A DNA stretch of 43,890 nt. Source: a virus. Below the pieces are notes generated by a model. That model made no database searches, was not told where the DNA came from, and worked only from the letters and a program-made list of their open reading frames with translations. Positions 8,131 to 43,890 of the stretch are shown piece by piece. The stretch's first letter is position 1. The number at the start of each line of letters is the position of its first letter. The stretch covers positions 1 to 43,890 of IMG/VR virus record IMGVR_UViG_3300047357_000416; one strand, given 5' to 3'. A program made the position numbers and the translations under genes.

Positions 8131-8131
8131 T

Positions 8132-9222: not shown

Positions 9223-9239
9223 CACTAATAAATAATAAT

Positions 9240-11672: not shown

Positions 11673-11676
11673 AAAT

Positions 11677-12575: not shown

Positions 12576-12577
12576 AA

Positions 12578-12793
12578 ATGACAAATAAAGAAAAAAAAGA
12601 AAGGGAGAGATGGGCTAAAGCAGGTGTAAATTTTATGCCTTGTGATGAAGATAGTCAAATATATAGTTGGCAAAGGACAAATAGAAAAGCTTCTTATACA
12701 ACTAAAGAAACAATATCTAAGAAAAACAGAAACCCGAAAAATATGGGTGTTAGACAATCTGATATATGGAATGGTAAAAACACAAAAAACTAA
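12578..12793 (+). CDS. Hypothetical basic protein, 71 aa
   Basis: Not recognised. Starts 2 nt after the previous stop. Very rich in Lys, Arg and Asn, with a Trp/Cys-containing middle; probably binds nucleic acid or is largely disordered. The last 23 nt overlap the radical SAM gene. The extended frame from 12,642 seen in another frame is not needed. Confidence 0.6.
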   Translation: MTNKEKKERERWAKAGVNFMPCDEDSQIYSWQRTNRKASYTTKETISKKNRNPKNMGVRQSDIWNGKNTKN

Positions 12794-13604: not shown

Positions 13605-13614
13605 TATTAATAAT

Positions 13615-13959: not shown

Positions 13960-13963
13960 TTTT

Positions 13964-13993
13964 TTGTTGACTCAGCTAAATTAATTATATTTA
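13964..13993 (+). promoter_or_regulatory. Bacteroidota-type promoter candidate
   Basis: TTG at 13,964-13,966, then 19 nt, then TATATTTA at 13,986-13,993. This follows the Bacteroidota form TTG-N19-TAnnTTTG except for the last base. It lies in the gap before the DUF932-like gene, 20 nt before its ATG. Confidence 0.5.
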
Positions 13994-14012
13994 CACTTTA
14001 AAAGTTTATAAT

Positions 14013-24050: not shown

Positions 24051-24063
24051 TAAACCAACAATC

Positions 24064-25689
24064 ATGGAATATAATAAATATTACTGGCTGACAGAAGACA
24101 GCCGCACATTTTTATCAAGAGGGTATATATCAGAAAGCCCTGAACAAAGAATCAAAGACATTGCTATAAAAGCAGAAAAGTATTTGAATATAAAAGGCTT
24201 TGCAGAAAAGTTTGAGGATTATATGGCAAGAGGATTTTACTCTTTGTCTACTCCTGTATGGATTAACTTTGGTAAGCAAAAAGGTTTACCTATTAGCTGC
24301 TATGGATCTAACATAGATGACAATCTAGATAGTATATTAAACGCAGGGCGTGAGATAGGTATGATGTCAAAATATGGAGGTGGAACAAGTGCTTACTTGG
24401 GTAATATTAGACCTAGAGGTAGTGTAATATCAACCGGTGGTTATGCTGACGGACCAATTCATTATGCTAGAATGTATGACACTGTAGTAGATGTATGCAA
24501 ACAATCAGAAGCTAGACGCGGAGCTTGTGCTGTATATTTACCAGTTGAGCATGCTGACATAGATGAGTTTTTAGATATTGGTACTGAGGGTAATCCAATA
24601 CAAAACTTGCAGTATGGTATCACAGTAAGTGATGCCTGGATGCAGGAGATGAAAGATGGGGATAGAAAGAAACGTAAGATATGGGCAAAAATAATTCAAC
24701 GCAGATCTGAGTTTGGGTTTCCTTATATTATGTTTAAAGATAACACCAATAATAACACACCTTACAAAGATTTAGGAATGGAGATCACAGCTTCAAATTT
24801 ATGCTCAGAGATCCAACTTCCTACAGATAGTTATAATTCTTTTGTGTGCTGCCTTGGTTCTATAAATGTATTACACTGGGATGAGATAAAAGAGACAGAT
24901 GCTATACAGACATATGTGTATTTTCTTAATGCTGTAATGGATGAGTTTATTATGAAAGCTGAAACTATGCCCGGTATGAAGAGAGCATATAACTTTGCTA
25001 ATAAACACAGAGCCATTGGTTTAGGAGTTCTTGGATATCATTCTTTATTTCAGTCTAAGTTAATTGAGTTTGACTCAATACAAGCTAAAGGATTGAATAG
25101 TGAAATATTTAGAACTATAAAAGATAGAAGTGAAATAGCATCAAGAAAACTGCACACTGACTATGGATATACGTGTTTAAGAGAAGGATATGCAAACACC
25201 ACACTGATGGCAATTGCTCCTACTAAATCTAGTAGTTTTATTCACGGTGCAGTGTCTATGGGAATAGAGCCTATCAAGTCTAACTACTTTGTAAAAGATC
25301 TTGCTAAGTCTAAGACTGTATATAAAAATCCTTATTTAGAGAGTGAGCTTGAAAAGTATGGGTTAAATACAGATAAAACTTGGAAGTCTATTCTAAGTAA
25401 AGATGGTAGTGTTCAACACTTAGACTTTCCTACTAAAGTGGTGTTTAAATCTTTTGTTGAGATCTCACCTAAAGAGATTGTTTTGCAAGCAGCTCAAAGA
25501 CAAAAATATATTGATCAATCGCAGTCACTTAACTTAATGATTGATCCATCTGTGTCTGCTAAGCAAATTAATCAGTTATATTTATATGCTTGGGAAGAAG
25601 GTGTAAAAACTTTGTATTATCAATTTAGCAAAAGTAGTGCTCAGGATTTTGCAAGAAACATTCTTGAGTGTGCTAGTTGTGAAGGTTAA
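24064..25689 (+). CDS. nrdA: Class I ribonucleotide reductase, large (catalytic) subunit
   Basis: 541 residues from the Met at 24,064; the frame from 23,998 would overlap nrdB. GLPISCYG (C79), ASNLCSEI (N245, C247, E249) and VCCLGSIN (C262/C263) give the active-site cysteines and thiyl radical site; the tyrosine pair TLYYQ (Y518, Y519) and a C-terminal CASC pair (C536, C539) complete the radical path and reduction. There is no room for the N-terminal ATP-cone, so it is a short type, as in many phages. It ends 1 nt before the convergent holin gene. Confidence 0.95.
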   Translation: MEYNKYYWLTEDSRTFLSRGYISESPEQRIKDIAIKAEKYLNIKGFAEKFEDYMARGFYSLSTPVWINFGKQKGLPISCYGSNIDDNLDSILNAGREIGMMSKYGGGTSAYLGNIRPRGSVISTGGYADGPIHYARMYDTVVDVCKQSEARRGACAVYLPVEHADIDEFLDIGTEGNPIQNLQYGITVSDAWMQEMKDGDRKKRKIWAKIIQRRSEFGFPYIMFKDNTNNNTPYKDLGMEITASNLCSEIQLPTDSYNSFVCCLGSINVLHWDEIKETDAIQTYVYFLNAVMDEFIMKAETMPGMKRAYNFANKHRAIGLGVLGYHSLFQSKLIEFDSIQAKGLNSEIFRTIKDRSEIASRKLHTDYGYTCLREGYANTTLMAIAPTKSSSFIHGAVSMGIEPIKSNYFVKDLAKSKTVYKNPYLESELEKYGLNTDKTWKSILSKDGSVQHLDFPTKVVFKSFVEISPKEIVLQAAQRQKYIDQSQSLNLMIDPSVSAKQINQLYLYAWEEGVKTLYYQFSKSSAQDFARNILECASCEG

Positions 25690-26514: not shown

Positions 26515-26532
26515 TTTGTCTTATTTAATAAA
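26515..26532 (+). repeat. Direct repeat, right copy
   Basis: TTTGTCTTATTTAATAAA, identical over 18 nt to 22,727-22,744. CTTTGTTTT is at 26,495-26,503, again upstream but 14 nt away instead of adjoining. It spans the stop codon of the 1,890-aa gene. Confidence 0.75.
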
Positions 26533-29500
26533 ATAGTCGTTCATTTTTAAATAAGCATCATACTTTTGTATAGAGTATAGGATAGGAATTACGTCCTTCC
26601 AATTTTTATAAACTTTAAGTTGACCTTTTCTAGGCTTTTGTTGATATACAAAACTAGAGTTAGTTTTAAACTCCTCATCACTGTAGTATAAATACGCCAT
26701 TGGTGTTGTTATACTTAATGATAATGCTTCACCTAATTCACCCATAGTTCGTGTTGCCGCTATTGGTGATTTAAACATTTGATATTGCTGTGTTAAACCA
26801 GCAGGTAATGGTGTAAACATTACAAGTTCTTTATAAGTTCTATCTGCTTGATATCTCAGTATGTTCTTGAACCTTTTAGTTGTTTCACTATCATCATCTT
26901 CACCAGCCAGTAAACTTGATAATACTTGAGATAAAGCAAATGTAGATAACATTATACCTATCTCACCCATAGTTCTATAAAAACCGTATAATTTATTTTT
27001 AGCTCTTTGATCTAAATTACCGCCTTCACCTGTATAGCCATAAGCTTCTAAGAAACCTTTATCATATTTAGAAAATTCTTTATTGCCTTTTACTAACTCA
27101 CCTTTAACATAGTTTAAAAACTTAAATGCAGATATGTATCTTCCTTCCATCCAACCTAAGTTCTGATCAAAGTATTCTCTCTGGTATCTTGCTCTAATTG
27201 CTGGAGCAACCCATTTATGAAACTGAAAAGCTAGTTTACCTATAGTAGTGCTTTGCATGACTACTCTATCTTCCTTAGCATAGTTACCGTGTATTTGTTT
27301 ATTTACTTCTCTGATTTCATTTCTTATTTCATACCTGAACTCATCTGTATAAGGTGTTTCTTGACCATTTCTCTTTATAACAGTGTCAAACCCTTCTTTT
27401 ACTTTATTTGTGTGTGTTTTAGAATCATACACAAAAGCATCATACAAAGATAGTGTTTCCCCTGTATCACTATTTTTAAGTTGAGTATCCATTAAAATTG
27501 CCATACCAACTTTAGTCTGAACATTATATTCTGCAGCATCTTGAAGTACATACCCCCATTCAGTGGCTTTATCAAACCAGCTTTTTCCCGCACTTGTATC
27601 TGATGTTTGTTCACGTAGATCTGACATGCTATCCATCATTCTAAACATATCAACAAATGCTTCATATTTACTATTTGGTTTTTGCGCATCATACGTTGAA
27701 TTCTTTAAACCAGGAACTAAACCAAAAGTTAACACATCGCCTAAATCACCAACAACATATGAAGATCTCTGAACTAAATCGGGAACTGCTCTTTTATTAA
27801 ATTCCCAAGTTGCTCTTCTATATGCTTTTTTGCTAAAAAATCTTGAGCCAAGCATTTCTATATTGTTATTAATCCTACCGATGACATAGTTATTAAAGTT
27901 ACCAAATGGGTTAAATGCTACATAAGATAATGAAGATAACTGAATTAATCCATCTGATATTTTATCTACTGCGCCTTTACTCATGGTGTCTTCTTCATAG
28001 TATGTCATAGACATCCATTTCTTTGCTTTCCTTAATATATTAGAATCAGCACCTTTTATTATACCTCTTTTTTGAAAAGCGCCATCTACTCTTGTACCTG
28101 TTGTTATTGCGGGGTCAGCAGGTTGATATTCTCTTTTTTCAATTACATTTATAAAAGCAAGAAGAGTATCTTCAATAGTACCCATAACTTCATAGTTTTC
28201 CGCCATAGCACTAAACTTCATTAATGATTCACCAAGATCCCTGCTAATTTCATTTGTTGTTGGTTGAGCAAGTAATTTTGACTCTTTACCTCTTAATTCA
28301 GCAAGATCTTTAGAATAAGCTGATGGTCCAATTAAACCTTTCTTTTTCTTATCATTTAAAGTTGTTATTTGCTTTTGTATATCTTCTAGCTCACCTTCAA
28401 GTCTTGGTCTACCAACATAATAAATAGGTAATGAACTTATAAGATTTCCATTTTCATCAGTTACTATACCGCGTTGCTGGGAAGTTGTTTGAAATATTTT
28501 CCAAGCATCATTTCCAATTGTTTTTGCATATGCTCTTGTAAAGAAACTAGGACGTTTCTTAAGATCTTCTATAAAATTGTTCTTGACTAAAGGAGTTCTA
28601 CCCATCATTTGTGTCATGATACCGACTGGTAACTTCTTTAATAGATCATTTTCATATACATCTATGTACATTTCATAAAATTCTTTTTGTGCTTGCCCTA
28701 ACGCATCTGTAGGATCCATTATAGATCTATATTTAGCACTAGCCATATCTCTACCATCAGCGGTTTCTAAAAGTACTTCACGGTACTGTTCTTTTACAGC
28801 TCTAAATGTTTGTCCACGCACAACCACACCAGTTGGGTCACCTAATGAGTTACGTTGTGCTTTAGTATAGTCAATTGTATCATAATATTTTGCTTCATAT
28901 ATTGAATACTCTTTATCTGAAATAGTTCTTGAATTCTTTCTTCTCCAAGTTCCGTATGGATTATTTTCTGAACCTGGTGTCCAATATTCATACTTTTTTC
29001 TTTCTTCTAGAAATTCAGGAGTGTATCTATGAAACATTCCATCAACTAAATTACCACTCTCATCTTTTACTTCTGCTGCAAAAAACTGACTAAACGCTCT
29101 CTTATCATTTGCCAACTTTATATTATAATCAATATCTTCTTGTGATGCTGAATCTAAATCAGTAATATCATTATAAAGATAAGGATGACCTTCATTATCA
29201 TAAAGTACACTGCGCAATTCATCTTGTAGATCATAATATTGTTGCCCAATAGGTTTAACATATCTACCATCAGACTCATGCATAAAATCATAAATCTTCT
29301 GTGTATCATTTGTAGGTGAAAGTTTAAGAAGTTTATTAGATTTTTGTCTTAAAATTTCATTTCTTGCGCCTATGTTATCTAACAATCTTTGTTTTTTAGC
29401 TTTAAACATTTTATCCATCACCGCAAGTAAAACTTTTGGAGATGTTGCCATATCTCTAGTTTGTAAATCAACTGTATCAATATCTTTAACACCAGTGCCT

Positions 29501-32193
29501 TCTATTAAATCTATGAGATCCTGCTCACTAAATGCACTACCCGTCCCGCCATAATCATTATTAGCTTTTAATCTTACGGTCTCAGTAACAAAATTAGAAA
29601 CTGCTTCATTAATAATACCTGCACCATCTGTTTGACTTCCTGCTAGTTTATTCAAAGAAAGTTGCAGTGATAACAATAAAGATCTTTGAGTTGCATTTAA
29701 TTCACCTGATTCTTCAATAGAATATAAGCCTTCAAATGTTTTAATAAATCTGTCAAAGTTATTTACATAAGTAATAAACTCTGGTTTAGCAAAGTTTTCA
29801 GGATTTTCAACATATTCTGTAAATGCTTTAATTTGTTTAAGAGCATCTCTTAATAATGCTGAATAAGCTTGAGATTGAGATACAGGTCCTTCTGCAATAG
29901 CAATACCTATATATGCAAGATGACTTGCAATATCTTCTTTCATGTCTTTTTCACTTCTATCCATAAAAACACTACTTCTTACAGAATCAAGCGCATCCCT
30001 TTTTTTAATTAAACCAATCCTATAAGTTTCTAGTGCACCAAGTATAGTATTATATTCAGGATAATCATTTATATCTATATCATCTGCTACTTCCTCATCT
30101 CTTTTAAATTGATCTTCTGGAACAAATGGTGCGTTATACTGATCTGCAACGGCCTCTTCAAGCTTTTTTGTTTTGTTTGCAGAATCCAATGACTCAGGAA
30201 CAATCATGTTTACCATATCTAAATTCTGGCTAGGTGGATGATCCACAACACCATCTGCTTGAATCTTACCACCAAACTTTTGATCTTTACCTTTACCGGT
30301 TATATCTGCTACAAAGTGTATGGTTGCAGCTGCATAATCACCTTCATATACTTGATACCCCATATTTTCAGCCATTCTTCTATAGATATTAACTTGTAAA
30401 TTATGTTGTTCTCTAGTAGATAATGATTGAACTCCTTTTTGATATAGTAAACTTTCAGGACTTAAATCCCAAGATTTATCATATTTTTTAAGTGTTAATG
30501 ACCCACCTTTGGTTGGTCTAAAGTATTTAGATTGAATTGAATTTTTACTTGTTTTTAAATCTAGTATTCTAATTTTACCATTTTTATCTATAATCATCAA
30601 ATCAACTGTACCTGCTGTTTTAGTGGCATCATCAAAAAGAACTACTTGAGATAATGCTATTGAATCTTCAGGCATCAAAAATTTTAAACTTGATTCTAAT
30701 TGATTATATACTTGATTGGCAATTTCAGGTGTAAGTAAACTTAAACTTACAGTATCCAAAGCTTCTCCGGCAATGATAGCATCTAGTAAAGCATCTACAT
30801 CATTTCCCAAGTCAAGATTTAATTGTACATCTTCTTGATTTTTTAGTTTACCCTTTATAGCCGTGGTAACAGAAGTGTATTGTTCACCAGTATTTATATT
30901 ATAATATGTATGATCTTTTTCATTAAGAATAACAATTGATCCATCAGAAGTATCTTTTAGATTTACTGATAAAAAATCAACATCTGTTTCTGTTGTTTGT
31001 GCAACATGAAACATTTTATCTAATATTATTTTTTGTACACCGTTTGCTGAATTCCTTTGGATATCTAAAGCTTTTTGTTTTTGAGGTGAAAGATTATATC
31101 TAATTTTACCGTTTACTCTTTTTTCAAGTTTAAACTGGATGCCTTCTGTATTTAAAAGTTTAGCAATATCAGTAAAGTTTGTATCTGAATTTATTGCAGA
31201 TACCGGTACTGATCTTCCTGTAAGATACTCATTTAAGTTGTTTATGACATTCATAAACCACTCTAATGCATCTTGTATTAAATTTGAAAATCTACTTGTT
31301 GGTGTAGTTTCAAATTCTTCTCTAAAATGTCTGGCTAGTGCTTGTGTAACTATCTCTAAGTTTCTGTCGGTTTCACTAAAACGTCTTTCCTTATTATATG
31401 AATCAGTAATTTCCTGAACCATCTCTGGAAAATTAATCCTTGCTTCAGCTAATAAATTATCAAATAAAGTTTGATTATCTACTTTAATTGCATCAATAAA
31501 TGGGTGCAACATTTCTTCTATTGCAACTTCATTGGTCACTCTTCCTTTTATTAAATAGGCTACCCCATCTACATAAAAAGATCTAACTTTATCAAAAGGT
31601 ACATTACTTTTTTTCCATGATGGCATTTCATTATACATGGCTTCTGCATCAGAAACAGATAACATTTGAACATTTATTTGAGGGAACATTCTTTTAAGAT
31701 GCATTACTACCGCTCTTGCTCTAGGTGTATCCCAAGCTCTTGATGATTCAATCATATCTTTTGTTGTAAACAGATCTTCATTTACAACTATTCTGTATGA
31801 TTCAGCCGTCCTTTCAATACTTACTCTATTTTCCGGAATATTATTTATAGAAAGGTATCTTTTAAGTCTTTTTAAATTGCTATTCAAATAAAACTCATCA
31901 TATTTTTGAGTATTAGGATTTGAATTATTTAAATAAAATTTATTTTGAAAACTGTGACCTATCTTCTCACGTCTTAAATTATTTAATAAACTTTCTGAAA
32001 AATTTCTTTGTTTTAGAGAAAACAATAATTTTTGATTACTCACAAAATCAGCTGCCTCAATCACAGTAGGAAAAGTATCTACGTTGTTAAGATCTTGCCA
32101 CTGATTAATAACATTGTTTGTAGCAATTTCTGTTTTGTATACATTCTGCAATACTTTATATTCTGCAGTATTTTTATTAGGACATCTAGCCAT
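26521..32193 (-). CDS. Giant virion-type protein with degenerate zincin and PD-(D/E)XK-like domains, 1,890 aa
   Basis: Residues 220-300 resemble a zincin: EVAIEEMLHPFIDAI has EEMLH (226-230) where an active enzyme would have HExxH, and EIVTQALARHFREEF follows, then LIQDALEWFMNVI. About 415-600 is a nuclease-like domain: DHTYYNINTGEQYTSVTT, GTVDLMIIDKNGKIRILDLKTSK (D531, D545, K547), then a helical part with Q-NIYRRM, the D...DxK pattern of the Cas4/RecB-type family. The remainder is long helical and mixed, with a hydrophobic stretch near the C-terminus (GEIGIMLSTFALSQVLSSLL). crAss-like phages carry neighbouring giant proteins packaged with the RNA polymerase, and this fits. It starts 3 nt after the 3,891-aa gene. 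Confidence 0.75.
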   Translation of the reverse strand: MARCPNKNTAEYKVLQNVYKTEIATNNVINQWQDLNNVDTFPTVIEAADFVSNQKLLFSLKQRNFSESLLNNLRREKIGHSFQNKFYLNNSNPNTQKYDEFYLNSNLKRLKRYLSINNIPENRVSIERTAESYRIVVNEDLFTTKDMIESSRAWDTPRARAVVMHLKRMFPQINVQMLSVSDAEAMYNEMPSWKKSNVPFDKVRSFYVDGVAYLIKGRVTNEVAIEEMLHPFIDAIKVDNQTLFDNLLAEARINFPEMVQEITDSYNKERRFSETDRNLEIVTQALARHFREEFETTPTSRFSNLIQDALEWFMNVINNLNEYLTGRSVPVSAINSDTNFTDIAKLLNTEGIQFKLEKRVNGKIRYNLSPQKQKALDIQRNSANGVQKIILDKMFHVAQTTETDVDFLSVNLKDTSDGSIVILNEKDHTYYNINTGEQYTSVTTAIKGKLKNQEDVQLNLDLGNDVDALLDAIIAGEALDTVSLSLLTPEIANQVYNQLESSLKFLMPEDSIALSQVVLFDDATKTAGTVDLMIIDKNGKIRILDLKTSKNSIQSKYFRPTKGGSLTLKKYDKSWDLSPESLLYQKGVQSLSTREQHNLQVNIYRRMAENMGYQVYEGDYAAATIHFVADITGKGKDQKFGGKIQADGVVDHPPSQNLDMVNMIVPESLDSANKTKKLEEAVADQYNAPFVPEDQFKRDEEVADDIDINDYPEYNTILGALETYRIGLIKKRDALDSVRSSVFMDRSEKDMKEDIASHLAYIGIAIAEGPVSQSQAYSALLRDALKQIKAFTEYVENPENFAKPEFITYVNNFDRFIKTFEGLYSIEESGELNATQRSLLLSLQLSLNKLAGSQTDGAGIINEAVSNFVTETVRLKANNDYGGTGSAFSEQDLIDLIEGTGVKDIDTVDLQTRDMATSPKVLLAVMDKMFKAKKQRLLDNIGARNEILRQKSNKLLKLSPTNDTQKIYDFMHESDGRYVKPIGQQYYDLQDELRSVLYDNEGHPYLYNDITDLDSASQEDIDYNIKLANDKRAFSQFFAAEVKDESGNLVDGMFHRYTPEFLEERKKYEYWTPGSENNPYGTWRRKNSRTISDKEYSIYEAKYYDTIDYTKAQRNSLGDPTGVVVRGQTFRAVKEQYREVLLETADGRDMASAKYRSIMDPTDALGQAQKEFYEMYIDVYENDLLKKLPVGIMTQMMGRTPLVKNNFIEDLKKRPSFFTRAYAKTIGNDAWKIFQTTSQQRGIVTDENGNLISSLPIYYVGRPRLEGELEDIQKQITTLNDKKKKGLIGPSAYSKDLAELRGKESKLLAQPTTNEISRDLGESLMKFSAMAENYEVMGTIEDTLLAFINVIEKREYQPADPAITTGTRVDGAFQKRGIIKGADSNILRKAKKWMSMTYYEEDTMSKGAVDKISDGLIQLSSLSYVAFNPFGNFNNYVIGRINNNIEMLGSRFFSKKAYRRATWEFNKRAVPDLVQRSSYVVGDLGDVLTFGLVPGLKNSTYDAQKPNSKYEAFVDMFRMMDSMSDLREQTSDTSAGKSWFDKATEWGYVLQDAAEYNVQTKVGMAILMDTQLKNSDTGETLSLYDAFVYDSKTHTNKVKEGFDTVIKRNGQETPYTDEFRYEIRNEIREVNKQIHGNYAKEDRVVMQSTTIGKLAFQFHKWVAPAIRARYQREYFDQNLGWMEGRYISAFKFLNYVKGELVKGNKEFSKYDKGFLEAYGYTGEGGNLDQRAKNKLYGFYRTMGEIGIMLSTFALSQVLSSLLAGEDDDSETTKRFKNILRYQADRTYKELVMFTPLPAGLTQQYQMFKSPIAATRTMGELGEALSLSITTPMAYLYYSDEEFKTNSSFVYQQKPRKGQLKVYKNWKDVIPILYSIQKYDAYLKMNDYFIK

Positions 32194-32196: not shown

Positions 32197-35100
32197 TTAT
32201 AAGTTACATTTTTTAATTTGATCTATAAAACTCTCCTCGCTTTCATAAATTCCATTGTTGTATTCAGCAATGAAGTCTTCCAAAGATAAGATATTATTTT
32301 CTCTCAAAGATGCCATTGCTTCTTTATTTCCTTGTATGTTAGCATCCCAGAAATTAGTAATAGTTGTGAATTGTTCATCTAGTTCCATTTCAAAATCTAA
32401 AGTTAATTGGCTTTCCAGCTCATCCGCTTCAGGTAATGATGTATCTACATTATCAATAATGTTTGCTTCAAGCTCGCTCTGATCTTGTGCATCTTGGTTT
32501 AACCCAAGTTGCTCTAATAGTAATTCTGTATCAGCAAGATTAGTCATAGCCGCTTCAGGATCAAGTTGTACTTCAATACTATTTTCAGTTGCTTCAATAT
32601 TTACATTATCAGCTTTTAGTATTTCCTGTTGTATTGCAAAAGCATCATCTATTGCTGGTGAAAAATCTGACGGATCTTGTGCTTGTCTACCACTTTTAGC
32701 ATTTACAAAAGCTCTCAGTTCTTTATAAGTAGGTCTAGGTCCAAACATAAAACCAATATGTGTTTGTTGATTGGAACCATACGGATCTATTTCTTTATAT
32801 GTTTTAGATTCTGAATCTAACTTATATGTTTTGATATTACCTAGTACATCAGAAATCCTAACATAATTTGGTGTAACATCTCTGCTCAAGCCAATTGCAT
32901 CCCAATTTACTGTTACTTCATTATCTTTTACTTGAACACCTTTTCGCAAACTTCCCGTTGTTGAAGACCTTTCAAAAGTCCAAAGCTTTGATCCATTAAT
33001 GTTAGATTCAAGAAAGCCTTCTGTAAATTCTTTTGTTAACTGCTCTTGGGATAATCCAAACGCAGATTCAAAAGAAATATCCCCTCTCACTGCTTGTTCA
33101 ACAGTATTAATATGAGATAAAAATTTATTTATTGTAAATGGAGCAATTGCTTCTAATAAACTACCATATCTTAATTGTAGTCCATCTTTAACCATTATAT
33201 AGTTAATTATTGTCTGAGCTTGATTTTTAGTATCAAGAGAACCATATAGTTGTGCAAAACTATTTTGTAAATCTACTTTTTGTGGGGCAGATAAATTCCT
33301 AAATGTATTTGCCATTGCTATATTAAGACCTGAATTATTTCCTACATCAGATGCTGACTCTGGTATAACAAAATTATCAATAAAGAAATTTGATTCATTC
33401 TTTGATTCTAATACTTCTTTTATTTCATTTATCACATCAACAATAGATCTATCCGAATTAGGGTATATTAAATCATTACTTAATACCTTTTCGTTAAGAG
33501 TCCCGTTTTGTAAAAGATTATGCTGATAACCTTTTATATTTAAATAAGATAAAAGATCTAATGCAATATTTTGTACATCTTCTGTTTTTAATGTTGTAGC
33601 TCTTGTGTCTATATTATCAACCACATTATTTAATATATCTTGAAAAACAGGTGAACTACTTAAGAATGTTGCAGGTAATAATTTATCAGTAAGCTCTTTA
33701 AACAACTTTAAATAAGTACTATTCCATGTGTCACTATTATAAATCTTGTTTAAATCTAATAGGGCATCTTCAGAAAGTAATTCTTCTATATCTTTTTTCT
33801 TATCTAATACAGTTGCAATATCTTTACCAAGTCCTTTGGAAAGGCTTGTTGGTGAACTCATTTTATCTGTAAAAGTTTTTAAATTTATTAATTCTTGAAA
33901 CTTTGATAGTATACTTACAGTTTCTTGATCATTTTGTGTAATCGGATTATTAATACTGTTAAGTAATAATTTTTCATTTACATTTAATGATGCTTTAGCA
34001 CCTGCTTCAACTAATTCATCTATTTTGTTTTCTACTAATTTTTCAATACCCGGATCAAACTTTTCTTTTTTATTTAACGCTTGAGAATACAAATCTTGTA
34101 TAACCGGATTGTTTATTAATAAGATAGATGTTCTGATAGGTATACTTAATGAAGTCATCATTGATACTAAACCTAATGCATGTCTATTTAAACCTAGCTT
34201 AGAAAACAAACGCTCCTTGGCATTATCTGTAGCCATGGTAATAAGAGAGGATATAGTATCTTGCTTTCTTTGATCACCCTCGTTTTTTTTCTCTGTAGTA
34301 TATCTAAATGAATCGTATGTTACACCATCTATACTAATTGGAGTTTTCAAGTCAATAGCATATTCAGTTAGTAAACTAAGATATAAATTTGGTAATACAG
34401 CAGCTCCAATAGATGCTCCTTTATTTGCTTTAAAGGCAAGTATCTTACCAACCAAATCATCCACATCATTATTTTCTTCTAACATTCTATTCTTAAAGAC
34501 ATCAGAATTTTCCGCCAGTGTTGCCAATGTACTTTCAAGTATATCTAAAGCAGCAGGAGAATAGGAAATAGGATTTTCACCGGATGCTACACTATCATTT
34601 CCAAGTAATGCATATTTATAATCTAGTATTTTATTATTTAAAGGAGCAGCATAAGGTTCACCAAATTTTTCCACGTAATCACCGTACTGTTTTTCAGTAA
34701 TAGGTAAACCTAATATTTGTAATGCTTTTAAACTTTTTTCAGCCAATCCAGCATCTGTAACAATATTTAAAGTGCTAAGTAATTTATAAAACTTTTCTGC
34801 TTCTAATTCTGTTGCACTATTTTCTAATTTTGCCGCATCTAAGTTTTCATCATATGTTAAAAAAGCTTCAGAATATATTGTTCCAGACTTACTTACATTA
34901 GTATTTACATATCTAATATAATCTGAGTAGTTTTCTTCAACTGTATTTTTATTACCATACTCAAAAAATTCTCCATCTTTTACATAAAAATCCTTAAACT
35001 GCACAAAAAGTTTATCAATATCAAAATCCGCACCAGATACCTCAACCAACTCTCTGGCAAACATTGCTGATGAACCATAATACACTGGCATAAAATCCAC

Positions 35101-38100
35101 CCATTTAATATTCATTGCTGAATGATTATCTTGAGATGGTATTCTTACAGCAAACATTTTTGATATTACTTCAGGCATAGTTGCTGAAGGTGTATTTTCA
35201 ATTAAATCCATTACAGATTTATGATGTGCTGGCATTATCATCTCAGTATATCTTTGACCTGTTGGTTGACCATTAGAGTCATATTCCATTACACCATGTC
35301 TCAATCTATCTAATACAACAACTCCTTCTGACCCTATATCTTCTTGCGTTAATGAATCAATATTAAGTAAATCATTTTCATTTCCTTGCCAAGCAGCTCT
35401 TCTTATAATTTCAGATCTAATTGGTACACCGTCTTTAATTTCAAATACTCTTCTATAAACTTTGTTTCCAAAGTCTGATACTAATGTAAGACCTAAACCA
35501 GGTGTTCTTTCTGAAAATACACCTTTACTGAAGTAACTTAAAAATAATTGCTCAAATTTTCTTACCGTAATTTGATTATTTAAGTTATAATTTGGTACAC
35601 CATCAGTCATAGAAAAGAACTCAAGTATCTGACTACTAGATTGTGATGCTTTAAGACCGCTCAATGCAAATTCTAAAAATGCAGCCAGCTTAGGTGTAAC
35701 TTTACCAGAAGCTTTAGATATAATCAATTCATCCATTGCACCATCAAAGCTAAATATTAAGTTCCTTTTATCTTTAAATTTTAAAGTAACTCTTTGTGAT
35801 ACAGCTTTATTATATTCTTCTCTAATTTTACCAACACTCATATTTAATGCCGGAACAAATTGATCATCATTTTGTTCTGAAGTTAATATCTGTTTTATTT
35901 GCGTAGGGTCAACTTGATCTAATTTGTTAGATGGGTTTAATTGTTGAAGACCCATAAATCTAGCATCTAGTGTAGTGACACCGTTGGTAAATGGTTTTGC
36001 ATCTCCAAGTTCCTCAAGTAAATTAACACGTTGCTTCTTCATTTTAACTGCACTTAATGGAGCAGCAATTGCTATTGTTTCTTTTTCTTTTTCAATAGCT
36101 TCTAACTTTAATCTTAAATTATGAAGTGTTTCTTTTCCTGGTTGAGGTAACCAATTTTTAATATCCTCATTCCATATAGATGTATATTCTGGTGTTAAAG
36201 TAAAAGCAGACATTTTAAGAAATGTGCTACCATCACCGTAAACAAGTTTTTTAGAATTTAATAATGCTTGCATTTTAGCGTAACCTTCAGGTGTAGCTTC
36301 ATTTCCAAATATTGAATCAGAAGTTATTGTTTGACCTGTTTCAATTCTGTTAATTAATTCTGCTTGAGCGGCTGTTAACTTACCAAAGCCAAACCACATA
36401 TATCTAAATGCTTTTGTAGTAATATACATTTGAGCATCCGCAATATCAATCCCACTATCTTCTGGCTCTTCTAATGTAACTAAGCTTATATCATCTACAG
36501 GATGAACAACACCATGAGATGGAGCTGTTATAGCTGAGTAGGCACTATAGTATGCACCATTTTGCATTTTAGCTCTTTTGATCTGATCTACTGAATCTTT
36601 TAAAGAGACTGCTTGATCACCTAAAAGAATCTCATTTATAGAGTATGAGTTTATAGCATCATTAAAAAATATCTGTTTAAGGTTGTGTCTGTAGTTATCA
36701 TTAAGATTTAGTAGTGAAGCAGATTGTACAAGAGCGTTTCTACTTACACCAGCCGCTATAATAGGACCTGATTTTACTTGATTAGATATTTGGTCTTGTA
36801 TTTTTAATTCATCTATTAACTGTTCAAATACTTGAAAACGGTTTTCTAAATTATCAACTACATTATCACGTAATGCTGTCATTCCAGATACCTCTTTAGC
36901 AACCCCACTAGTTTGTTGTGTTGGCGCAGTAGTAGGTTGAGCCATTATATCTCCAAGAGTTTTCTTTATACCATATTTTTTATCTATACTTTCTGTATAT
37001 GCAAAATCTTTAGCATTTAACTTGATGTCTGTTTGAGGTGGTACATTTTTTAAATCTTCTGTAATTGAAGTTATTAAATCTGCAGGTATTGCTGCAGAAA
37101 TATTTTTGTCCATAAAATCTTCAGACATCTTAGAACTACTTATCATAGAAGGTTCAGATTTAGTGCCTTCATTTTTAAACAGTTCTTTCCGAAGAACACC
37201 GTCTTTTAAACTAAGTTTAGCCATCCATTGACCTGTAGGTCTATCAAATAAAATTTTAAAATTACCCTCAGTAGGATTTGGTATAATATGAGTTATTGTA
37301 TTTTCTGCGTTTTGAATAGGTTCTTTTAAAGACCAATCTTTTAACTCAAAGATAGGTACATCTTTCTTTTTAGATTCTTCCCTTAGTTTATCAAAATTAA
37401 CCTCACTAGTTTGTGGTAAAACTGTTACTGTCCCTGCTAATGCATCATCTAGTGTAATAACATTACCTGCATTACCTGCTTTAATTGCTGCATTAATAAG
37501 AAAGGTCTGTTGTTCTTCAGACATTAGTGTCTTAGTATTAAAAAACGTAAGCGCTCTCCCGTCTGTATAACCCAATATATCTTCTTGAGTTTTTGTTGCG
37601 TTATTTGCTTCTCTGTTTATTCTAGCAAATTCAGTTCTAATTTTATCTATATATATATCTACAGTCTCTTCAGTTAAAACGGCTTTTCCATTATCCATTT
37701 CTACAGTCTTAATTACCGGAAGAGAAATCATATCTCCTGTATTAGATGCTTCCATCACTCTTATAAGCACTGGAGCTAATCCTGTAGTAATTTTATTACC
37801 TTCAGCGTCTATGCTTTCTACGTTAGATACTTTATAACTTTTGCTGTTTAATAAGCCTGCATAATTGTTTATTAAGTTAAGAGCAAACTCTTGTGGAGTA
37901 AAATCACCATATGTTGAGGTTTGTTTTACATCTTGTAAAGAGCCATCTAGTTCTTCTTCAGTTGATAGTAAACTACCTATTTTATTTCCTGCTACTCTTA
38001 TTATTTGCAATCTTGATTCTAATGACAACTGATTAAAAGCCGCACTATTTAATAAAAAGTTATTTGCTAAATAAGGATCTGATTTTAATAACTCTTCTAG

Positions 38101-41100
38101 GTTATTTGCATCATTTAATTCTGCTATCTTTTTTAAATGGTATGTTGGTAGTTGATGTGCGTAAACTAAATCACCATTAGGATTTTTAAATACAGATGCT
38201 CCAATTGTTTCATCAAATGGTGCATTACCAACAGCCATCTTCTTTAATCTAGAATCCATACCAGATTCATCAACTGAAAAGATATCATTGTTATCTTGAA
38301 TCAGTTGACTCATTAAAGCTATGGAACTTTCTTTGTAAGGTTTACCATCTAAATCATGAGTTAATGATGGTGTTTCATTTTTATTTAAATCTAAAAAAGC
38401 ACGTTGATCAGATTTTAAATTAGCTCTGTTATACAACATATTATATTGAATATAAAGAGGGCTAATTTTAATACCAGAAAGATTAAATAACTGCTCAGAG
38501 TACTTCTTAGCATCTTTTTTAAGTTTAGCACTACTTATACCTTTACTATTTGGTATTATCTCACTTTGAATTTCAGCAAGTAGAGTTATTAGTTCTGTTT
38601 TTAAATTAGGATTAGATAAAAGCTGTTTCCTTTTACTAATAAACCCCTGACTCCATCTATCCAATTGAGAATTAATATCATCTCTTTCTGAAGCAGAATA
38701 TACTATTGTATTACCCGAATTATCTCTTTCATTAAATAAGTAGTCAACTCTAAAGTTTTCAAAACCTTTTAATATTGACTGAAATAGTAAAGGAGAATTT
38801 ACTTCTAATGGAATAGAATCATCACTTAATAATTGTTCTTCAGATATTCCCACATCATTTAAAATTCTACGTACAACAGCAGATGTTTCTGAATTATCTT
38901 GACCAAAGAAATACATGCTTTGAAGTATCTTTTTAGGGTCGGTTAAATTTTTAACAGCTTTAAGTAAACCATTATATGCTTCTACAAAATCAACAGCTAT
39001 TATTATTGGCTCACCATTTGTTAACTCAGTATTCCCAAAATAATCAGTTGCTTCTACAGAAGTTGTTGCTATGTAAGCTCTAAGTTGACTACTCAAAGAT
39101 CTAAATCCACCAATCATTGATGCATCCTTTTCATACTCAGATGTAGTTCTTAAACCAGTGGAGTCTTCAAACTCCTCTACTTGAAACTCTTCTTCATTAG
39201 CCTTATCACTTATTTGGTTAATATATTTTATACTTTGATTTCTTATTTCATCGCTATAATTATCAAAAGCTGATTGTATTTCAATTAATTTTTCTTTTTG
39301 TAAATTTGTTTTACTTTCATTAATTGGATTCTCCAGACTATATAACCATTCAAAGTCATCTAATATAGAATCCATTTGTTCTTTAGGATTATAAGATTCA
39401 TTTAATTTAGATATACGTTGTAAAAACATAGCTGATATATTCCTAATTAAAGGGTCTGCTATATCACTATCTAAATAAATAAATCCTAAATTACTTTCTT
39501 TACTAATTGAGTCATGAGGTATTAATGCGTTGGCCTCTATAGTAGTTCCAATATCTAATGCCGTAGTAAATTCATTGTTGGCTATTTGCGCACCTTTAAA
39601 CTTACCTGAGTCAATATTTTCAAACAATGTCCGTAATTCATTTTTTGAATATGAATTAAATACACCCTTAATCCATTCTATAATTCTGGTAAATAAAGAT
39701 TTGACACTTGGATCAGTGTTAGTATTTTTAGGGTTTACTTTAAACTTTTCAAATTCATCTGCTAAATATTCCTCATAGTATTCATTCTCTAGTTGTTTTC
39801 TAGTCATGTTACTATATGTATCTGCAGAGTTTTTAAACTTTTCAAGTTCTTTCTCAAAACTTTTTCCTTGAGCTCTGAGTTTAGCTCTGACTTCTTTTCT
39901 AGCTATGCTTCTATATTTATTTATCTCTTCATTACTAAGCAGCATTCTAAATACACCGTGAAAGGCTTCGTGATATTTATATGGAGATGTTGCACCAGTA
40001 TAAATAGTTCCGGATACTTCTTGTCCACCAGCTATGTGATTTAACCCTAATACAAACGCACCAACGCGTACACCACCTGCTTTTAAATTATTACCTAATG
40101 TTGTTATATCAGCTATATTAATAAAACTAGGTAGATTACTTGCAGCCCAATCGGTAAAGATATCTATATCCTCTACATCTGTTAAACTTAAATCAGAAGA
40201 AGACATAATTTTATTAGCTTCCTTTTCAATTGCTTTTCTTTGAGCTAATAATTTTTGATACTCTTCACTTGTTCTAAGAGTCTTACCCCTATCTTTAGGT
40301 GCAACACCCTCTAATAGTTGTGTTTTAAGAGATTCAAGTTTTTGTTTAACTTTATCAAGGGGATTAGTTTGTTTTGTTGATTCTAAATAATCAACACCTC
40401 TTTGAAACCAAGCCTGTATCTTTCCCCCTAACTCAGGTATTACAGCTTTAGCTTGTTCTAGTGATACCCCATTAACACTAAAAGATTCCGCTACCTCTAA
40501 ACCTGAAGCATCTATAGGAAAAAATAAACCTCCTCCAGTATAAATAGATATTAATTGTTTTACACCTGCGCTTCTTTCAGCCTCAGTACTTTGTTGTGCT
40601 GTTGTAAGTTCTGGCCCAGTAGGTATAGGATTACCTTCTGCATCAGTAAAATTTTCTGTTGGTGTAAAAACAGCTTGTGTTGATGTGCCTTCACCACCTT
40701 TCTTAGATACCATAACATTAATAGTAGCAGCTCTCATATTATAAACTTCTACTTCTCTTGTTGTTAGATTATCCACACCTTCTCTGACAATTTTATTCAC
40801 TATATGATTGATGTATTCAGAAGGTAATGTAATAAAATCTTTAGCTGCAAACTCAGCAAATGCTGCATCACTTAAATCTAATAAACCAAACTCAACTTCT
40901 TCAGAAGTAAAATTAGTTTCTTCTACTGCCTCAACAACATCTTCTTTTATATCACCCTTATCAATTTCAGCTTGAATAGCTGAGGAATCACCGGTTGCTC
41001 TAGCTGAGCTATTTAATACTACTTCAGGTCTTACATTAGTAGTTGTAGCATCTATTAAATCTGTAGCAGTTACTTGTGTTGGAAATGATTGTCTAAAGTT

Positions 41101-43872
41101 TTTATTTGATATTTTGTTTCCTGATTTTGCTATTTCTTCGTTATTATTAAAATCATTAATTAATGTTTGTACATAACCATTAATAGATGAATCTGAAACA
41201 AAACTTTTTGCATTTCCAGCTGGTATATCTACAGTAATGGTGTCTCCTATTTGTTTGCCAATATCTGTATTATATAATTGTAGTTGTAGCTTACCCCATG
41301 GAGTAACTTGCAAAGAAATATTATAACCCCCTTTAGCTGATATAAATACAGATTCTCTTATGTCTTCCTCATTAAATTGGGTATTGTACGCTAAGTCCTT
41401 AGCCTTTCCGTCTTTATCTAGATTTTCTTGTTTAGTTTTTTGTGCTCTATTAACAAGTTTAGATGCTAAATCATCTCTTTGAGATTTATTATATGTACGA
41501 GCCTTTAAATTAACTGGTCTGTAAGATCCATCAGGCAATTGTACTATGGCTATATATCTATCAGTACCATTCTTAATATTATCCCACAATAAATCTTTTT
41601 CAAGTCTGGATATTATTTTATTAGATAATTTAACTCCATCGCTTCCTTCCAATGAAGTAATAAATTCTACTGATCTAGCACCGCCCTTTTTTCTTTTTAA
41701 ATCAAAAATAAAGTAATTACCATTTTCATCAGCATGTTCATAGCGTAAATTCTTTAAAGATCTTGTTGTAGAATTATCATATGACATGCCACCTTTTTGA
41801 ATAGCAAATCCTAATCCAAAAGGTAATTCATTTAATGATACAACGTTGGTATCTATATTACTATTTATTACACTGTCAGCATATGACACCAATAATGCAT
41901 TTAAAGCAAAGTTATTTCTTGCTAACTCTAAAGCTTGTTTTTGATCTAATTTATTTTTTAATTCAGGACTTACAAATAAAGTGTTCAATGCTTGTTCTCT
42001 AGATATATTAGACAAAGATTTTATCTCTTTACCTTGAGGATCTTGCATGCTTACATTTGCATTAGGTATATATGCAAACACACCATTTTCATTATCTGTT
42101 AATGGAATATTATTTTCATTTAATATTCTATTAATTTTTGTTTTTGTATTCCCATCTGGAATGGCAAGACCTATGCTGTATTTAGATTGTTTGATGTCAA
42201 CATAAGGATTTTCTTCTTTTCCTGATACAATGTATTTAGATGCTTCATTATTAACAACTTTATTTGATGTAATAACAAGCACAAGATTATTAATTTCTTC
42301 TTGTGTTAAATTATCTAATATAAGATTTAATCTATCATCCGCATAACTATAGTCCCTTTGACCATCAACGGTATTTGCATGAGGGTATAACTTATTTATA
42401 TCAGTTATGTTTACTCTAGAAACATTTGCAGGTAGTAAATTAAATTTAAACTCTTGTATAGAATAAGAGTTTTTAAATTGACCGGCTTGTAATGTAACAG
42501 GTTTGCCTTCAAAATTATTAGGAACCAAACGCAAATTACCACCCTGTATAAATTTAGGAGTGCTAATTACCCTGTACTCTTTTCCATCTTTATCATAAAC
42601 CAATTGACCTTGAAATAACATTTGTCCATCAAAAGGGAATGGTGTACTATCAGGCGCACGTTTATCTAATTCTCTCATTGCTGCAATAGCAGATCCAGAA
42701 TCATTAAAAGCATTAAGTGTAATTCCTATTTGTGCTAATAATTCAGGAGATACGTTATTACCTTTTTTATCAACCAATTTATATAAAGCTTCAGCCTCAC
42801 CCTGTTGATTTATTGTTATTATTTTAAAAACATCTGATGTAACACCAACCTGAAATACACTCGGTCTAGGAGGATTAGCAGGATCAATTTTATCTTCATC
42901 ATCTTCATTACCTACCGCTGGAGTAACATCAGTTGGATCTGACTCAACACGTTCAGTATAGTACATTTCATTTAATGGTATACCAGCTGCTTGAAGTATT
43001 TCTTTTACTAAATCATTTTCTAAAACCTCTCTACTTTTTAACCAGGTTTCAAAACCTTTCTCAGATTTAATATCTTCATCAGTTAATTCTGTAAATACAG
43101 GATTACCTTGAGCATCTAATACTGGAAGTTTACCTGATATCCATAATTTCTTTAATGCATTAAATGTGTTTTGCCAGTTAAGACCTTCTTGATTTCTCCA
43201 CTCTTCAAAGCTTTTAACCTTTTCCTCAAGAACGGTTTGAGTACCGGCATATTTCCTATATTGTCTATCTAATAAAGCTCTTAATAATGGAGTATTATTT
43301 GCTTCTGGTAATACTACATCTATGTTAGCCTCCTCTAAAATTTCTTCTTGATTACTTTTTGTTTCCTGTACCTCAATGTCTTTGCTCTCTTGTTCAGTTG
43401 TTTCTGTAGAATCATCAGTCTTTTCTGACATGTTTTTATAGACATCAAGCAATCTTTGAATTTGATCATACTTTACTTTATCTAATTTAGGATCTATATC
43501 CCCTTGTTCATCATAAAAGTTTTTTAACTCATTTATATTTCCAGTGAGTAAAAATTTCTTAACTTGCTCAGGATCACCAACATAACCTGCTTCAAATAGT
43601 TTATTCATTAAAGTATTTGCTTCTTTTATATTGATATACTTTTCTATTTGTTGCTTATGTATTTTAGTAAGATTTTTGTATATGTCTTTGTTAACTTCTA
43701 TTTGTCTATCAACAATTTCATTAAGCCTTTCGGGATTGTTCAAATACTCAATTGCTTTATCATATACCTTAGCTCTGCCTTTTAGTGCATGATAATCAAC
43801 CATTTGTTTAAGAGCTTCTTCAATTTTAGATCTATCTACAAATGAATTAGATGATTGTGCCATAAATTGCAC
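32197..43872 (-). CDS. Giant crAss-like virion RNA polymerase with zincin domain, 3,891 aa
   Basis: One uninterrupted frame. Residues are counted from the GTG at 43,872; an ATG at 43,863 (MAQSSNS) may be the real start, and the frame stays open to the window edge, so the gene may be longer. HEAFH (1301-1305) with YYEEYLADEF (1365-1374) downstream is a complete zincin site. At 2910, RIPSQD matches the conserved RxPSLH-type element of RNAP largest subunits, and 40 residues later GADFDIDKLFV has the three catalytic Asp (2949, 2951, 2953) of the DFDxD motif. The crAss-like phi14:2 polymerase is 2,180 residues, so here it seems fused to an N-terminal virion region. It should be injected with DNA and transcribe early genes. 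Conservation is by motif reading only. Confidence 0.8.
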   Translation of the reverse strand: MQFMAQSSNSFVDRSKIEEALKQMVDYHALKGRAKVYDKAIEYLNNPERLNEIVDRQIEVNKDIYKNLTKIHKQQIEKYINIKEANTLMNKLFEAGYVGDPEQVKKFLLTGNINELKNFYDEQGDIDPKLDKVKYDQIQRLLDVYKNMSEKTDDSTETTEQESKDIEVQETKSNQEEILEEANIDVVLPEANNTPLLRALLDRQYRKYAGTQTVLEEKVKSFEEWRNQEGLNWQNTFNALKKLWISGKLPVLDAQGNPVFTELTDEDIKSEKGFETWLKSREVLENDLVKEILQAAGIPLNEMYYTERVESDPTDVTPAVGNEDDEDKIDPANPPRPSVFQVGVTSDVFKIITINQQGEAEALYKLVDKKGNNVSPELLAQIGITLNAFNDSGSAIAAMRELDKRAPDSTPFPFDGQMLFQGQLVYDKDGKEYRVISTPKFIQGGNLRLVPNNFEGKPVTLQAGQFKNSYSIQEFKFNLLPANVSRVNITDINKLYPHANTVDGQRDYSYADDRLNLILDNLTQEEINNLVLVITSNKVVNNEASKYIVSGKEENPYVDIKQSKYSIGLAIPDGNTKTKINRILNENNIPLTDNENGVFAYIPNANVSMQDPQGKEIKSLSNISREQALNTLFVSPELKNKLDQKQALELARNNFALNALLVSYADSVINSNIDTNVVSLNELPFGLGFAIQKGGMSYDNSTTRSLKNLRYEHADENGNYFIFDLKRKKGGARSVEFITSLEGSDGVKLSNKIISRLEKDLLWDNIKNGTDRYIAIVQLPDGSYRPVNLKARTYNKSQRDDLASKLVNRAQKTKQENLDKDGKAKDLAYNTQFNEEDIRESVFISAKGGYNISLQVTPWGKLQLQLYNTDIGKQIGDTITVDIPAGNAKSFVSDSSINGYVQTLINDFNNNEEIAKSGNKISNKNFRQSFPTQVTATDLIDATTTNVRPEVVLNSSARATGDSSAIQAEIDKGDIKEDVVEAVEETNFTSEEVEFGLLDLSDAAFAEFAAKDFITLPSEYINHIVNKIVREGVDNLTTREVEVYNMRAATINVMVSKKGGEGTSTQAVFTPTENFTDAEGNPIPTGPELTTAQQSTEAERSAGVKQLISIYTGGGLFFPIDASGLEVAESFSVNGVSLEQAKAVIPELGGKIQAWFQRGVDYLESTKQTNPLDKVKQKLESLKTQLLEGVAPKDRGKTLRTSEEYQKLLAQRKAIEKEANKIMSSSDLSLTDVEDIDIFTDWAASNLPSFINIADITTLGNNLKAGGVRVGAFVLGLNHIAGGQEVSGTIYTGATSPYKYHEAFHGVFRMLLSNEEINKYRSIARKEVRAKLRAQGKSFEKELEKFKNSADTYSNMTRKQLENEYYEEYLADEFEKFKVNPKNTNTDPSVKSLFTRIIEWIKGVFNSYSKNELRTLFENIDSGKFKGAQIANNEFTTALDIGTTIEANALIPHDSISKESNLGFIYLDSDIADPLIRNISAMFLQRISKLNESYNPKEQMDSILDDFEWLYSLENPINESKTNLQKEKLIEIQSAFDNYSDEIRNQSIKYINQISDKANEEEFQVEEFEDSTGLRTTSEYEKDASMIGGFRSLSSQLRAYIATTSVEATDYFGNTELTNGEPIIIAVDFVEAYNGLLKAVKNLTDPKKILQSMYFFGQDNSETSAVVRRILNDVGISEEQLLSDDSIPLEVNSPLLFQSILKGFENFRVDYLFNERDNSGNTIVYSASERDDINSQLDRWSQGFISKRKQLLSNPNLKTELITLLAEIQSEIIPNSKGISSAKLKKDAKKYSEQLFNLSGIKISPLYIQYNMLYNRANLKSDQRAFLDLNKNETPSLTHDLDGKPYKESSIALMSQLIQDNNDIFSVDESGMDSRLKKMAVGNAPFDETIGASVFKNPNGDLVYAHQLPTYHLKKIAELNDANNLEELLKSDPYLANNFLLNSAAFNQLSLESRLQIIRVAGNKIGSLLSTEEELDGSLQDVKQTSTYGDFTPQEFALNLINNYAGLLNSKSYKVSNVESIDAEGNKITTGLAPVLIRVMEASNTGDMISLPVIKTVEMDNGKAVLTEETVDIYIDKIRTEFARINREANNATKTQEDILGYTDGRALTFFNTKTLMSEEQQTFLINAAIKAGNAGNVITLDDALAGTVTVLPQTSEVNFDKLREESKKKDVPIFELKDWSLKEPIQNAENTITHIIPNPTEGNFKILFDRPTGQWMAKLSLKDGVLRKELFKNEGTKSEPSMISSSKMSEDFMDKNISAAIPADLITSITEDLKNVPPQTDIKLNAKDFAYTESIDKKYGIKKTLGDIMAQPTTAPTQQTSGVAKEVSGMTALRDNVVDNLENRFQVFEQLIDELKIQDQISNQVKSGPIIAAGVSRNALVQSASLLNLNDNYRHNLKQIFFNDAINSYSINEILLGDQAVSLKDSVDQIKRAKMQNGAYYSAYSAITAPSHGVVHPVDDISLVTLEEPEDSGIDIADAQMYITTKAFRYMWFGFGKLTAAQAELINRIETGQTITSDSIFGNEATPEGYAKMQALLNSKKLVYGDGSTFLKMSAFTLTPEYTSIWNEDIKNWLPQPGKETLHNLRLKLEAIEKEKETIAIAAPLSAVKMKKQRVNLLEELGDAKPFTNGVTTLDARFMGLQQLNPSNKLDQVDPTQIKQILTSEQNDDQFVPALNMSVGKIREEYNKAVSQRVTLKFKDKRNLIFSFDGAMDELIISKASGKVTPKLAAFLEFALSGLKASQSSSQILEFFSMTDGVPNYNLNNQITVRKFEQLFLSYFSKGVFSERTPGLGLTLVSDFGNKVYRRVFEIKDGVPIRSEIIRRAAWQGNENDLLNIDSLTQEDIGSEGVVVLDRLRHGVMEYDSNGQPTGQRYTEMIMPAHHKSVMDLIENTPSATMPEVISKMFAVRIPSQDNHSAMNIKWVDFMPVYYGSSAMFARELVEVSGADFDIDKLFVQFKDFYVKDGEFFEYGNKNTVEENYSDYIRYVNTNVSKSGTIYSEAFLTYDENLDAAKLENSATELEAEKFYKLLSTLNIVTDAGLAEKSLKALQILGLPITEKQYGDYVEKFGEPYAAPLNNKILDYKYALLGNDSVASGENPISYSPAALDILESTLATLAENSDVFKNRMLEENNDVDDLVGKILAFKANKGASIGAAVLPNLYLSLLTEYAIDLKTPISIDGVTYDSFRYTTEKKNEGDQRKQDTISSLITMATDNAKERLFSKLGLNRHALGLVSMMTSLSIPIRTSILLINNPVIQDLYSQALNKKEKFDPGIEKLVENKIDELVEAGAKASLNVNEKLLLNSINNPITQNDQETVSILSKFQELINLKTFTDKMSSPTSLSKGLGKDIATVLDKKKDIEELLSEDALLDLNKIYNSDTWNSTYLKLFKELTDKLLPATFLSSSPVFQDILNNVVDNIDTRATTLKTEDVQNIALDLLSYLNIKGYQHNLLQNGTLNEKVLSNDLIYPNSDRSIVDVINEIKEVLESKNESNFFIDNFVIPESASDVGNNSGLNIAMANTFRNLSAPQKVDLQNSFAQLYGSLDTKNQAQTIINYIMVKDGLQLRYGSLLEAIAPFTINKFLSHINTVEQAVRGDISFESAFGLSQEQLTKEFTEGFLESNINGSKLWTFERSSTTGSLRKGVQVKDNEVTVNWDAIGLSRDVTPNYVRISDVLGNIKTYKLDSESKTYKEIDPYGSNQQTHIGFMFGPRPTYKELRAFVNAKSGRQAQDPSDFSPAIDDAFAIQQEILKADNVNIEATENSIEVQLDPEAAMTNLADTELLLEQLGLNQDAQDQSELEANIIDNVDTSLPEADELESQLTLDFEMELDEQFTTITNFWDANIQGNKEAMASLRENNILSLEDFIAEYNNGIYESEESFIDQIKKCNL

Positions 43873-43890
43873 ATACTCTTGAAACGCCCC

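Follow-up and report, generated by a model that had tools for sequence, protein, structure and literature searches.

Predicted fusion of a zincin-like module to a crAss-like virion RNA polymerase in a giant cargo protein with linker-bounded cassette slots

The DNA analyzed here in its entirety, hereafter the window, is the 43,890-bp linear virus record IMGVR_UViG_3300047357_000416 of IMG/VR, a fragment. At positions 32197..43890 its minus strand, on which all features of this protein described below lie, is occupied by one giant open reading frame (ORF) of 3,897 codons and a stop, predicted to join a zincin-like metallopeptidase module to a virion RNA polymerase (RNAP) and to carry exchangeable cassettes in slots marked by a short linker. 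The frame stays open right up to the contig end, which cuts off the N-terminus. A GTG start would yield 3,891 aa, in line with the protein of about 3,900 residues proposed in the initial annotation; however, the proteins of relatives continue for about 890 residues beyond the window's first residue on the N-terminal side, so that translation does not truly begin at this GTG and the true N-terminus lies outside the window. The positions first assigned to the two hallmark motifs, 1301 and 2949, are therefore right only if counted from that GTG: in the frame itself, HEAFH is at residue 1307 (39958-39972), RIPSQD at 2916 (35128-35145), and GADFDID at 2953-2959 (35014-35034), and the reported 39-residue spacing between the latter two is correct. 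That HEAFH and GADFDID share one open frame was confirmed in the window and in its relatives, for which our searches returned 25, then 69 loci. Complete ORFs of relatives measure 4,428-5,368 aa and contain both motifs except in the mosaic L005/L041, and among some 60 environmental relatives, nearly all that cover both regions have both motifs in one ORF. L007 is the sole relative with a frame break near the fusion, and its counterpart L008 is intact.

The C-terminal part is, by homology, a virion RNAP of the crAss-like two-barrel kind represented by phi14:2 gp66, as had been proposed from the double-psi beta-barrel (DPBB) motifs. This module (32767..36879, residues 2338-3708) is colinear with gp66 residues 793-2089 by hhalign, and its DPBB-A catalytic core, running from RIPSQD to GADFDID (35014..35145), is invariant in the alignment of relatives and aligns to RIPNQG...GSDFDID of gp66. 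Using tblastn with residues 2398-3897, the matches were confined to crAss-like phages, including phi14:2 g066 (E 4e-3 over 849 residues), which is annotated as the catalytic RNAP subunit. In hhalign, a 14-sequence profile matched gp66 with a probability of 99.8 (E 2.3e-30, 1,185 columns) and gave no match among unrelated cargo proteins serving as controls. An AlphaFold model of residues 2440-3600 was of low confidence (mean predicted local distance difference test score, pLDDT, of 57), and in a Foldseek search with it, chain A of 6VR4, the phi14:2 enzyme, was the sole significant PDB match (E 1.9e-7). Lys 2559 and Lys 2616 are invariant and fall within the gp66-colinear region, where the model is too weak to display the second barrel (DPBB-B). 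Scanned in full against Pfam and PHROGs, the ORF gave nothing informative, and sequence-based searches of the PDB with phmmer and profiles did not recover 6VR4. TerL, portal, and major capsid protein of the phi14:2 type were each found in 14 of 16 relatives at 23-26% identity, the window fragment being without that region, and these genes place the clade on a deep, environmental crAss-like branch; the neighbouring gp49 homologue also speaks for crAss membership. By analogy, we infer that the window RNAP is present in the virion and transcribes early genes. One match each was obtained in a Pseudomonadales and a Campylobacteraceae metagenome-assembled genome; both resemble binned phage contigs, and we therefore claim no host.

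Within the same chain, HEAFH marks a putative zincin-like metallopeptidase domain (39646..40071, residues 1274-1415), homologous to that of the crAss001 cargo protein gp47. The pattern YHE(A/G)FH...EEYxA(D/N)xF is kept across 32 aligned relatives, with HExFH and EEYxA invariant, and includes the predicted third-ligand helix EEYLADEF (39751-39774); a third ligand on the following helix is the zincin layout given in a passage of Iyer et al. 2017 (PMC5512222). By hhalign, the domain matches the C-terminal domain of crAss001-type gp47 (E 1e-8) and cr1_1 (E 2e-10), and the version in L025 matches crAss001 gp47 itself (E 8e-14), while the closest PDB profile match, Pro-Pro endopeptidase, is weak at E 0.06. 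The motif conservation and the match to gp47 agree with the initial proposal of a zincin module in the same chain as the RNAP. Its targets may be host proteins, the entry complex, or its own chain.

Since the zincin is homologous to gp47 and the polymerase half to the gp66/gp50-type RNAP, the window protein is best described, from its sequence, as a gp47-type cargo protein fused to a gp50/gp66 polymerase. The N-terminal 1,700 or so residues, first taken for an extra extension, are instead a homologue of the separate crAss001 protein gp47, whose zincin is also C-terminal. The zincin-type/gp47, RNAP, and gp49-like parts are separate genes in phi14:2 and crAss001; in Intestiviridae and Crevaviridae the RNAP is joined to the gp49-like protein, leaving the zincin protein on its own; Suoliviridae (cr1_1, cr50_1, cr113_1) and the window's clade have a zincin-RNAP fusion next to a free-standing gp49-like protein. 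That these fusions are mutually exclusive suggests that the three cargo parts work as one complex.

Comparison with individual systems refines this picture. The gp66 of phi14:2 (PDB 6VR4, Steigviridae) is a homologous two-barrel RNAP with the DFDID loop and about 1,300 colinear residues, but it is a separate protein of 2,180 aa, its neighbour g067 is without HExxH, and no cassettes were seen in the loci examined. The gp47 of crAss001 has the homologous HEAFH zincin near its C-terminus and gp49 is the counterpart of the window's next gene, whereas gp47, gp50, and gp49 are three genes there, with gp47 on the opposite strand, and the window combines gp47 and gp50 in one chain. All three crAss001 proteins were detected in virions by mass spectrometry (PMC10172136), and injection of the window protein into the host would follow by analogy. 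The zincin-RNAP fusion itself is not new: it is present, mis-annotated, in the gut phages cr1_1 (4,551 aa), cr50_1 (4,774 aa), and cr113_1 (4,328 aa; in-frame stops read through), where a HEAFH/HEAWH zincin and DFDxD share one ORF followed by a gp49-like protein. These differ in being named gut phages of other genera, and the linker was not found in the loci examined. In GenBank, crAss RNAP-block proteins (L128, L129, L035) are apparently misnamed as 'DNA helicase' (cr50_1), 'DprA-like' (cr113_1), and 'nuclear pore complex-like' (cr8_1). The protein also resembles the polyvalent proteins of Iyer et al. 2017 (PMC5512222), giant multi-enzyme chains with zincin, virion RNAP, and ART domains and a predicted entry role, in that several unrelated enzymatic domains occur per chain (the window has zincin and RNAP, and relatives have NADAR and ART-PolyVal); it differs in that crAss phages go unmentioned in that paper, whose passages considered here describe no DNA-conserved linker. 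The N4 virion RNAP gp50 (Schitoviridae) is also a giant protein; it is ejected, and both an HExxH domain and flexible linkers are part of its chain (PMC12633501). Its polymerase, however, has the T7-like single-subunit fold and its zincin lies downstream, whereas the window polymerase is of the two-barrel DFDID type homologous to 6VR4, so the pairing is independent. Because it arose with unrelated polymerases in crAss-like and N4-like phages, the protease seems to have a real job in delivery.

The most unusual feature of the protein, we think, is one that the initial annotation missed, namely the linker-bounded cassette slot. Conservation drops sharply at residues 1051-1150 and 2151-2330, flanking the zincin block, and comparison with relatives shows that slots on both sides of this block, and a third close to the C-terminus in relatives, have gained, lost, or replaced cassettes of about 100-260 aa. 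Slot 1, between the zincin block and the RNAP (36901-37419), consists of two linkers around a cassette of about 158 aa (36925..37398) that is absent from L002/L004, other cassettes being found in L001/L008. The corresponding pre-RNAP stretch is 227 aa in the window, 61 in L002, 216 in L001 with a different sequence, and 206 in L008, different again. Outside the slot, the window is 94% identical to L001 on one side and 91% on the other, yet the cassettes of the window, L001, and L008 are mutually without clear similarity. Slot 2, upstream of the zincin (40360..40698), holds an insert of about 100 aa that is absent from L001/L002 and replaced in L004 by a different insert of 262 aa; an eroded linker-like sequence with 5 mismatches is found in it at 40579-40602. 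Three families could be named among the cassettes of relatives: a NADAR domain in L008 (E 9e-11, above the Pfam cut-off), ART-PolyVal in L022 (E 2e-8), and DUF7831 in L126 (1e-12) and L005 (4e-27), with a range over relatives of 1e-12 to 1e-35. As ADP-ribose conflicts involve both NADAR and ART domains (PMC9503650, PMC11125620), a role of the cassettes in early host takeover or counter-defence may be supposed, and, judged from these three families, they are possibly counter-defence domains. The RNAP ORF of cr126_1 carries the label DUF1768 (NADAR), and the NADAR-RNAP fusion may thus recur. The frame break of L007 (9680-9737) falls within a NADAR cassette, and the linkers of L007 are 35 nt more widely spaced than those of L008.

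Cassettes are bounded by the peptide PTQQTS(G/E)V, encoded by the near-invariant DNA CCAACACAACAAACTAGTGRGGTT. In the window, the right cassette linker, CCAACACAACAAACTAGTGGGGTT (PTQQTSGV, 36901..36924), is an exact copy that directly precedes the RNAP module, and the left one, of the CTLPQTSEV type, ...CCACAAACTAGTGAGGTT (peptide LPQTSEV, 37399..37419), is one codon shorter. One copy is found at the empty site of L002 and two around a filled site, and the 18-base core with at most 3 mismatches has a chance expectation of 0.11 in the window. A scan of 2.9 million viral contigs for this core returned 45 stretches, compared to 2 for a reversed-sequence control and 1 for synonymous recoding. All matches (49/49) share one reading frame, within ORFs of 300-4,607 aa, and recognisable members of the zincin/RNAP family are encoded by about 31 of the 45 stretches. 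When 17 contigs were checked further, 11 carried crAss-like RNAP, TerL, or portal, and the linker is also present in the L173 phage, whose portal is 42% identical to that of phi14:2; the match in L140, inside a 1,202-aa ORF with no crAss-like sign, may be a chance one. L160 (G029, a 90,316-bp contig) has a single open frame of 6,647 codons with the RNAP motif and the linker. In contexts picked by peptide rather than DNA, from independently fetched loci, the codons AGT (13/13, 26% expected), GAG (8/9, 23%), GGG (5/6, 9%), and GTT (14/15, 39%) were used far above background, and amino-acid substitutions retained the third base (GAG/GGG, ACT/GCT, AGT/GGT). The linker is conserved as DNA, beyond its peptide. 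In the literature on crAss phages with zincin, NADAR, or cassette exchange, the fusion and the linker were absent; subscription papers were mostly outside this coverage, so an earlier description is possible.

The modules on either side of the linker have been re-paired among phages. Clustering of 120 residues per side for 39 distinct linkers gave six left modules with more than one right partner and three right modules with more than one left partner, and the RNAP start was paired with five different left modules. The divergent phage L025, with a polymerase only about 20% identical, has a 90% identical copy of the window cassette in another slot, at the C-terminus of its RNAP protein, and the L001 cassette is found again in another slot of L153. 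In the mosaic L005, the switch from unrelated to 80% identical sequence occurs exactly at the linker. The RNAP part of this locus (1683-14734) is the one 80% identical to the window; the N-terminal part is unrelated, resembles the cr11_1 zincin protein, and is split into two ORFs, with a distinct HEYQH motif beside the linker.

The simplest account of these patterns would be recombination between co-infecting phages through short in-frame homology. We give a probability of roughly 70% to the reading in which the window encodes a giant cargo protein, comprising a gp47-type zincin module and an RNAP with linker-bounded swap slots, that serves as an ejected chassis exchanging cassettes by recombination. 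The protein would travel inside the capsid and leave it together with the genome in a partly unfolded state; the RNAP would refold after entry and transcribe early genes, and the zincin and cassette would act early during infection of the new host. The polymerase would thus serve as a chassis that delivers exchangeable domains for host takeover or counter-defence. Co-infecting phages could exchange cassettes by homologous recombination via the 18-24-bp linker, plausibly with recombination enzymes that the phage itself encodes (7144-8130 holds an exonuclease VIII-like gene), and the linker would be retained because the shared short homology keeps swaps in frame.

Several points weigh against this reading. 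That the protein is packaged and ejected, that its protease and cassette are active, and that recombination takes place are deductions. The window's own cassette matched no family, and most other cassettes likewise have no assignment. A Foldseek search with a poor AlphaFold model of residues 1150-1560 (mean pLDDT 65), which covers the zincin, gave no match. The linker data all come from metagenomic assemblies, and since the linker contexts share ancestry, the tails of the codon test are indicative only and overstate significance. Finally, a recognisable linker is found in only 17 of 60 relatives, and several variable slots, such as that of L022, are without one; not every exchange therefore depends on the linker, and other routes of domain change exist.

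Among other explanations, a less probable one, raised in the initial annotation as a possible self-processing function, is that the zincin mainly processes its own chain, cutting flexible linkers after entry to free the RNAP and cassette, with PTQQTS(G/E)V as the cleavage site. The zincin residues are invariant in fused proteins, variable hinges lie at 1051-1150 and 2151-2330, phi14:2 and crAss001 have each half as a protein of its own, a different motif, HEYQH, stands beside the same linker in L005, and zincin processing of multidomain phage proteins was proposed in a passage of Iyer et al. 2017 (PMC5512222). However, the zincin motifs are retained in crAss001 gp47 and Intestiviridae, where they are unfused to RNAP, a peptide site would not need the synonymous-site constraint, and the scarcity of the linker among the 60 zincin-bearing relatives (17) indicates that it is not a required cut site. 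Cassette movement by a site-specific recombinase or homing-type endonuclease targeting the linker, beyond mere short homology, is rather unlikely: the near-invariant 18-24-bp DNA, its single copy at the empty site and two copies flanking a cassette, the palindrome ACTAGT within it, and an HNH endonuclease encoded in the window (2515-3678) would fit, but no recombinase was found within or next to cassettes, an inverted-repeat architecture was not shown, and general short-homology recombination explains the re-pairing without an extra enzyme. It is highly improbable that the cassette differences are metagenome assembly chimeras, for which a shared 24-bp sequence in data of this kind offers a possible misjoin point: every junction keeps the frame open, with all 49 matches in frame, one and the same slot holds inserts in contigs of many samples, slots vary without linkers (L021 versus L022), and the repeat is shorter than the usual assembly k-mers. 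The artificial joining of two genes through a sequencing error, raised in the initial annotation and suggested by the separate genes of phi14:2, can be dismissed because nearly all relatives that span the two regions, as well as cr1_1 and cr50_1, keep both motifs in one ORF.

The next gene (26521..32193, minus strand) encodes a 1,890-aa gp49-like protein, a homologue of phi14:2 g065 and crAss001 gp49 ('RNA polymerase subunit'). Stop-codon readthrough from the giant ORF into this in-frame ORF was considered and rejected, as the gap is unconserved (-98 to +134 nt) and an ATG follows. The gp49-like protein contains a PD-(D/E)XK exonuclease-like domain (about 30355-30996, minus strand; phrog_298, E 6e-13), a nuclease domain that in crAss001-type phages resides in gp47 (hhalign E 7e-8), and such domains thus migrate between cargo proteins. 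It also has a degenerate zincin motif, EEMLH (31504-31518, minus strand); because EEMLHPF matches HEIMH of phi14:2 g065 and HEFMHPF of Leptolyngbya phage Lbo-JY46, this looks like a second zincin whose first His was lost throughout the clade. Lbo-JY46 (L028, PP438436), a cyanobacterial phage outside the Crassvirales classification, encodes a gp49-like protein (hhalign E 7e-15), which extends crAss-like cargo beyond Bacteroidota hosts; a DFDxD protein was not seen within the stretch examined. Upstream, plus-strand genes encode a primase, an HNH endonuclease, an ATPase, an exonuclease VIII-like protein, a family A DNA polymerase, MazG, and a ribonucleotide reductase, whose small and large subunit frames (23070-25689) overlap by about 50 bases. 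On the minus strand, 16445-20050 encodes a protein of 1,201 aa that combines Big_9 and cadherin-like domains with a DNSGSM motif as in vWA domains and is possibly a host-binding virion protein.

Since virion RNAPs must enter every infected cell, domains fused to them are delivered first. It is an even question whether many crAss-like lineages share the in-frame, DNA-conserved 18-24-bp 'plug' for fitting in cassettes, the polymerase or its partner cargo then acting as a programmable injector for enzymes of host takeover or counter-defence, with a repertoire passed horizontally among members that are otherwise unrelated. Slot exchange would explain why the same cargo functions are fused differently across crAss-like families. 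If the proposal is correct, the linker would offer a simple DNA marker by which injected effector domains could be located even before a function is assigned to them, and slots at short conserved DNA would reveal how phages update what they deliver in the first minute of infection with no need of new genes.

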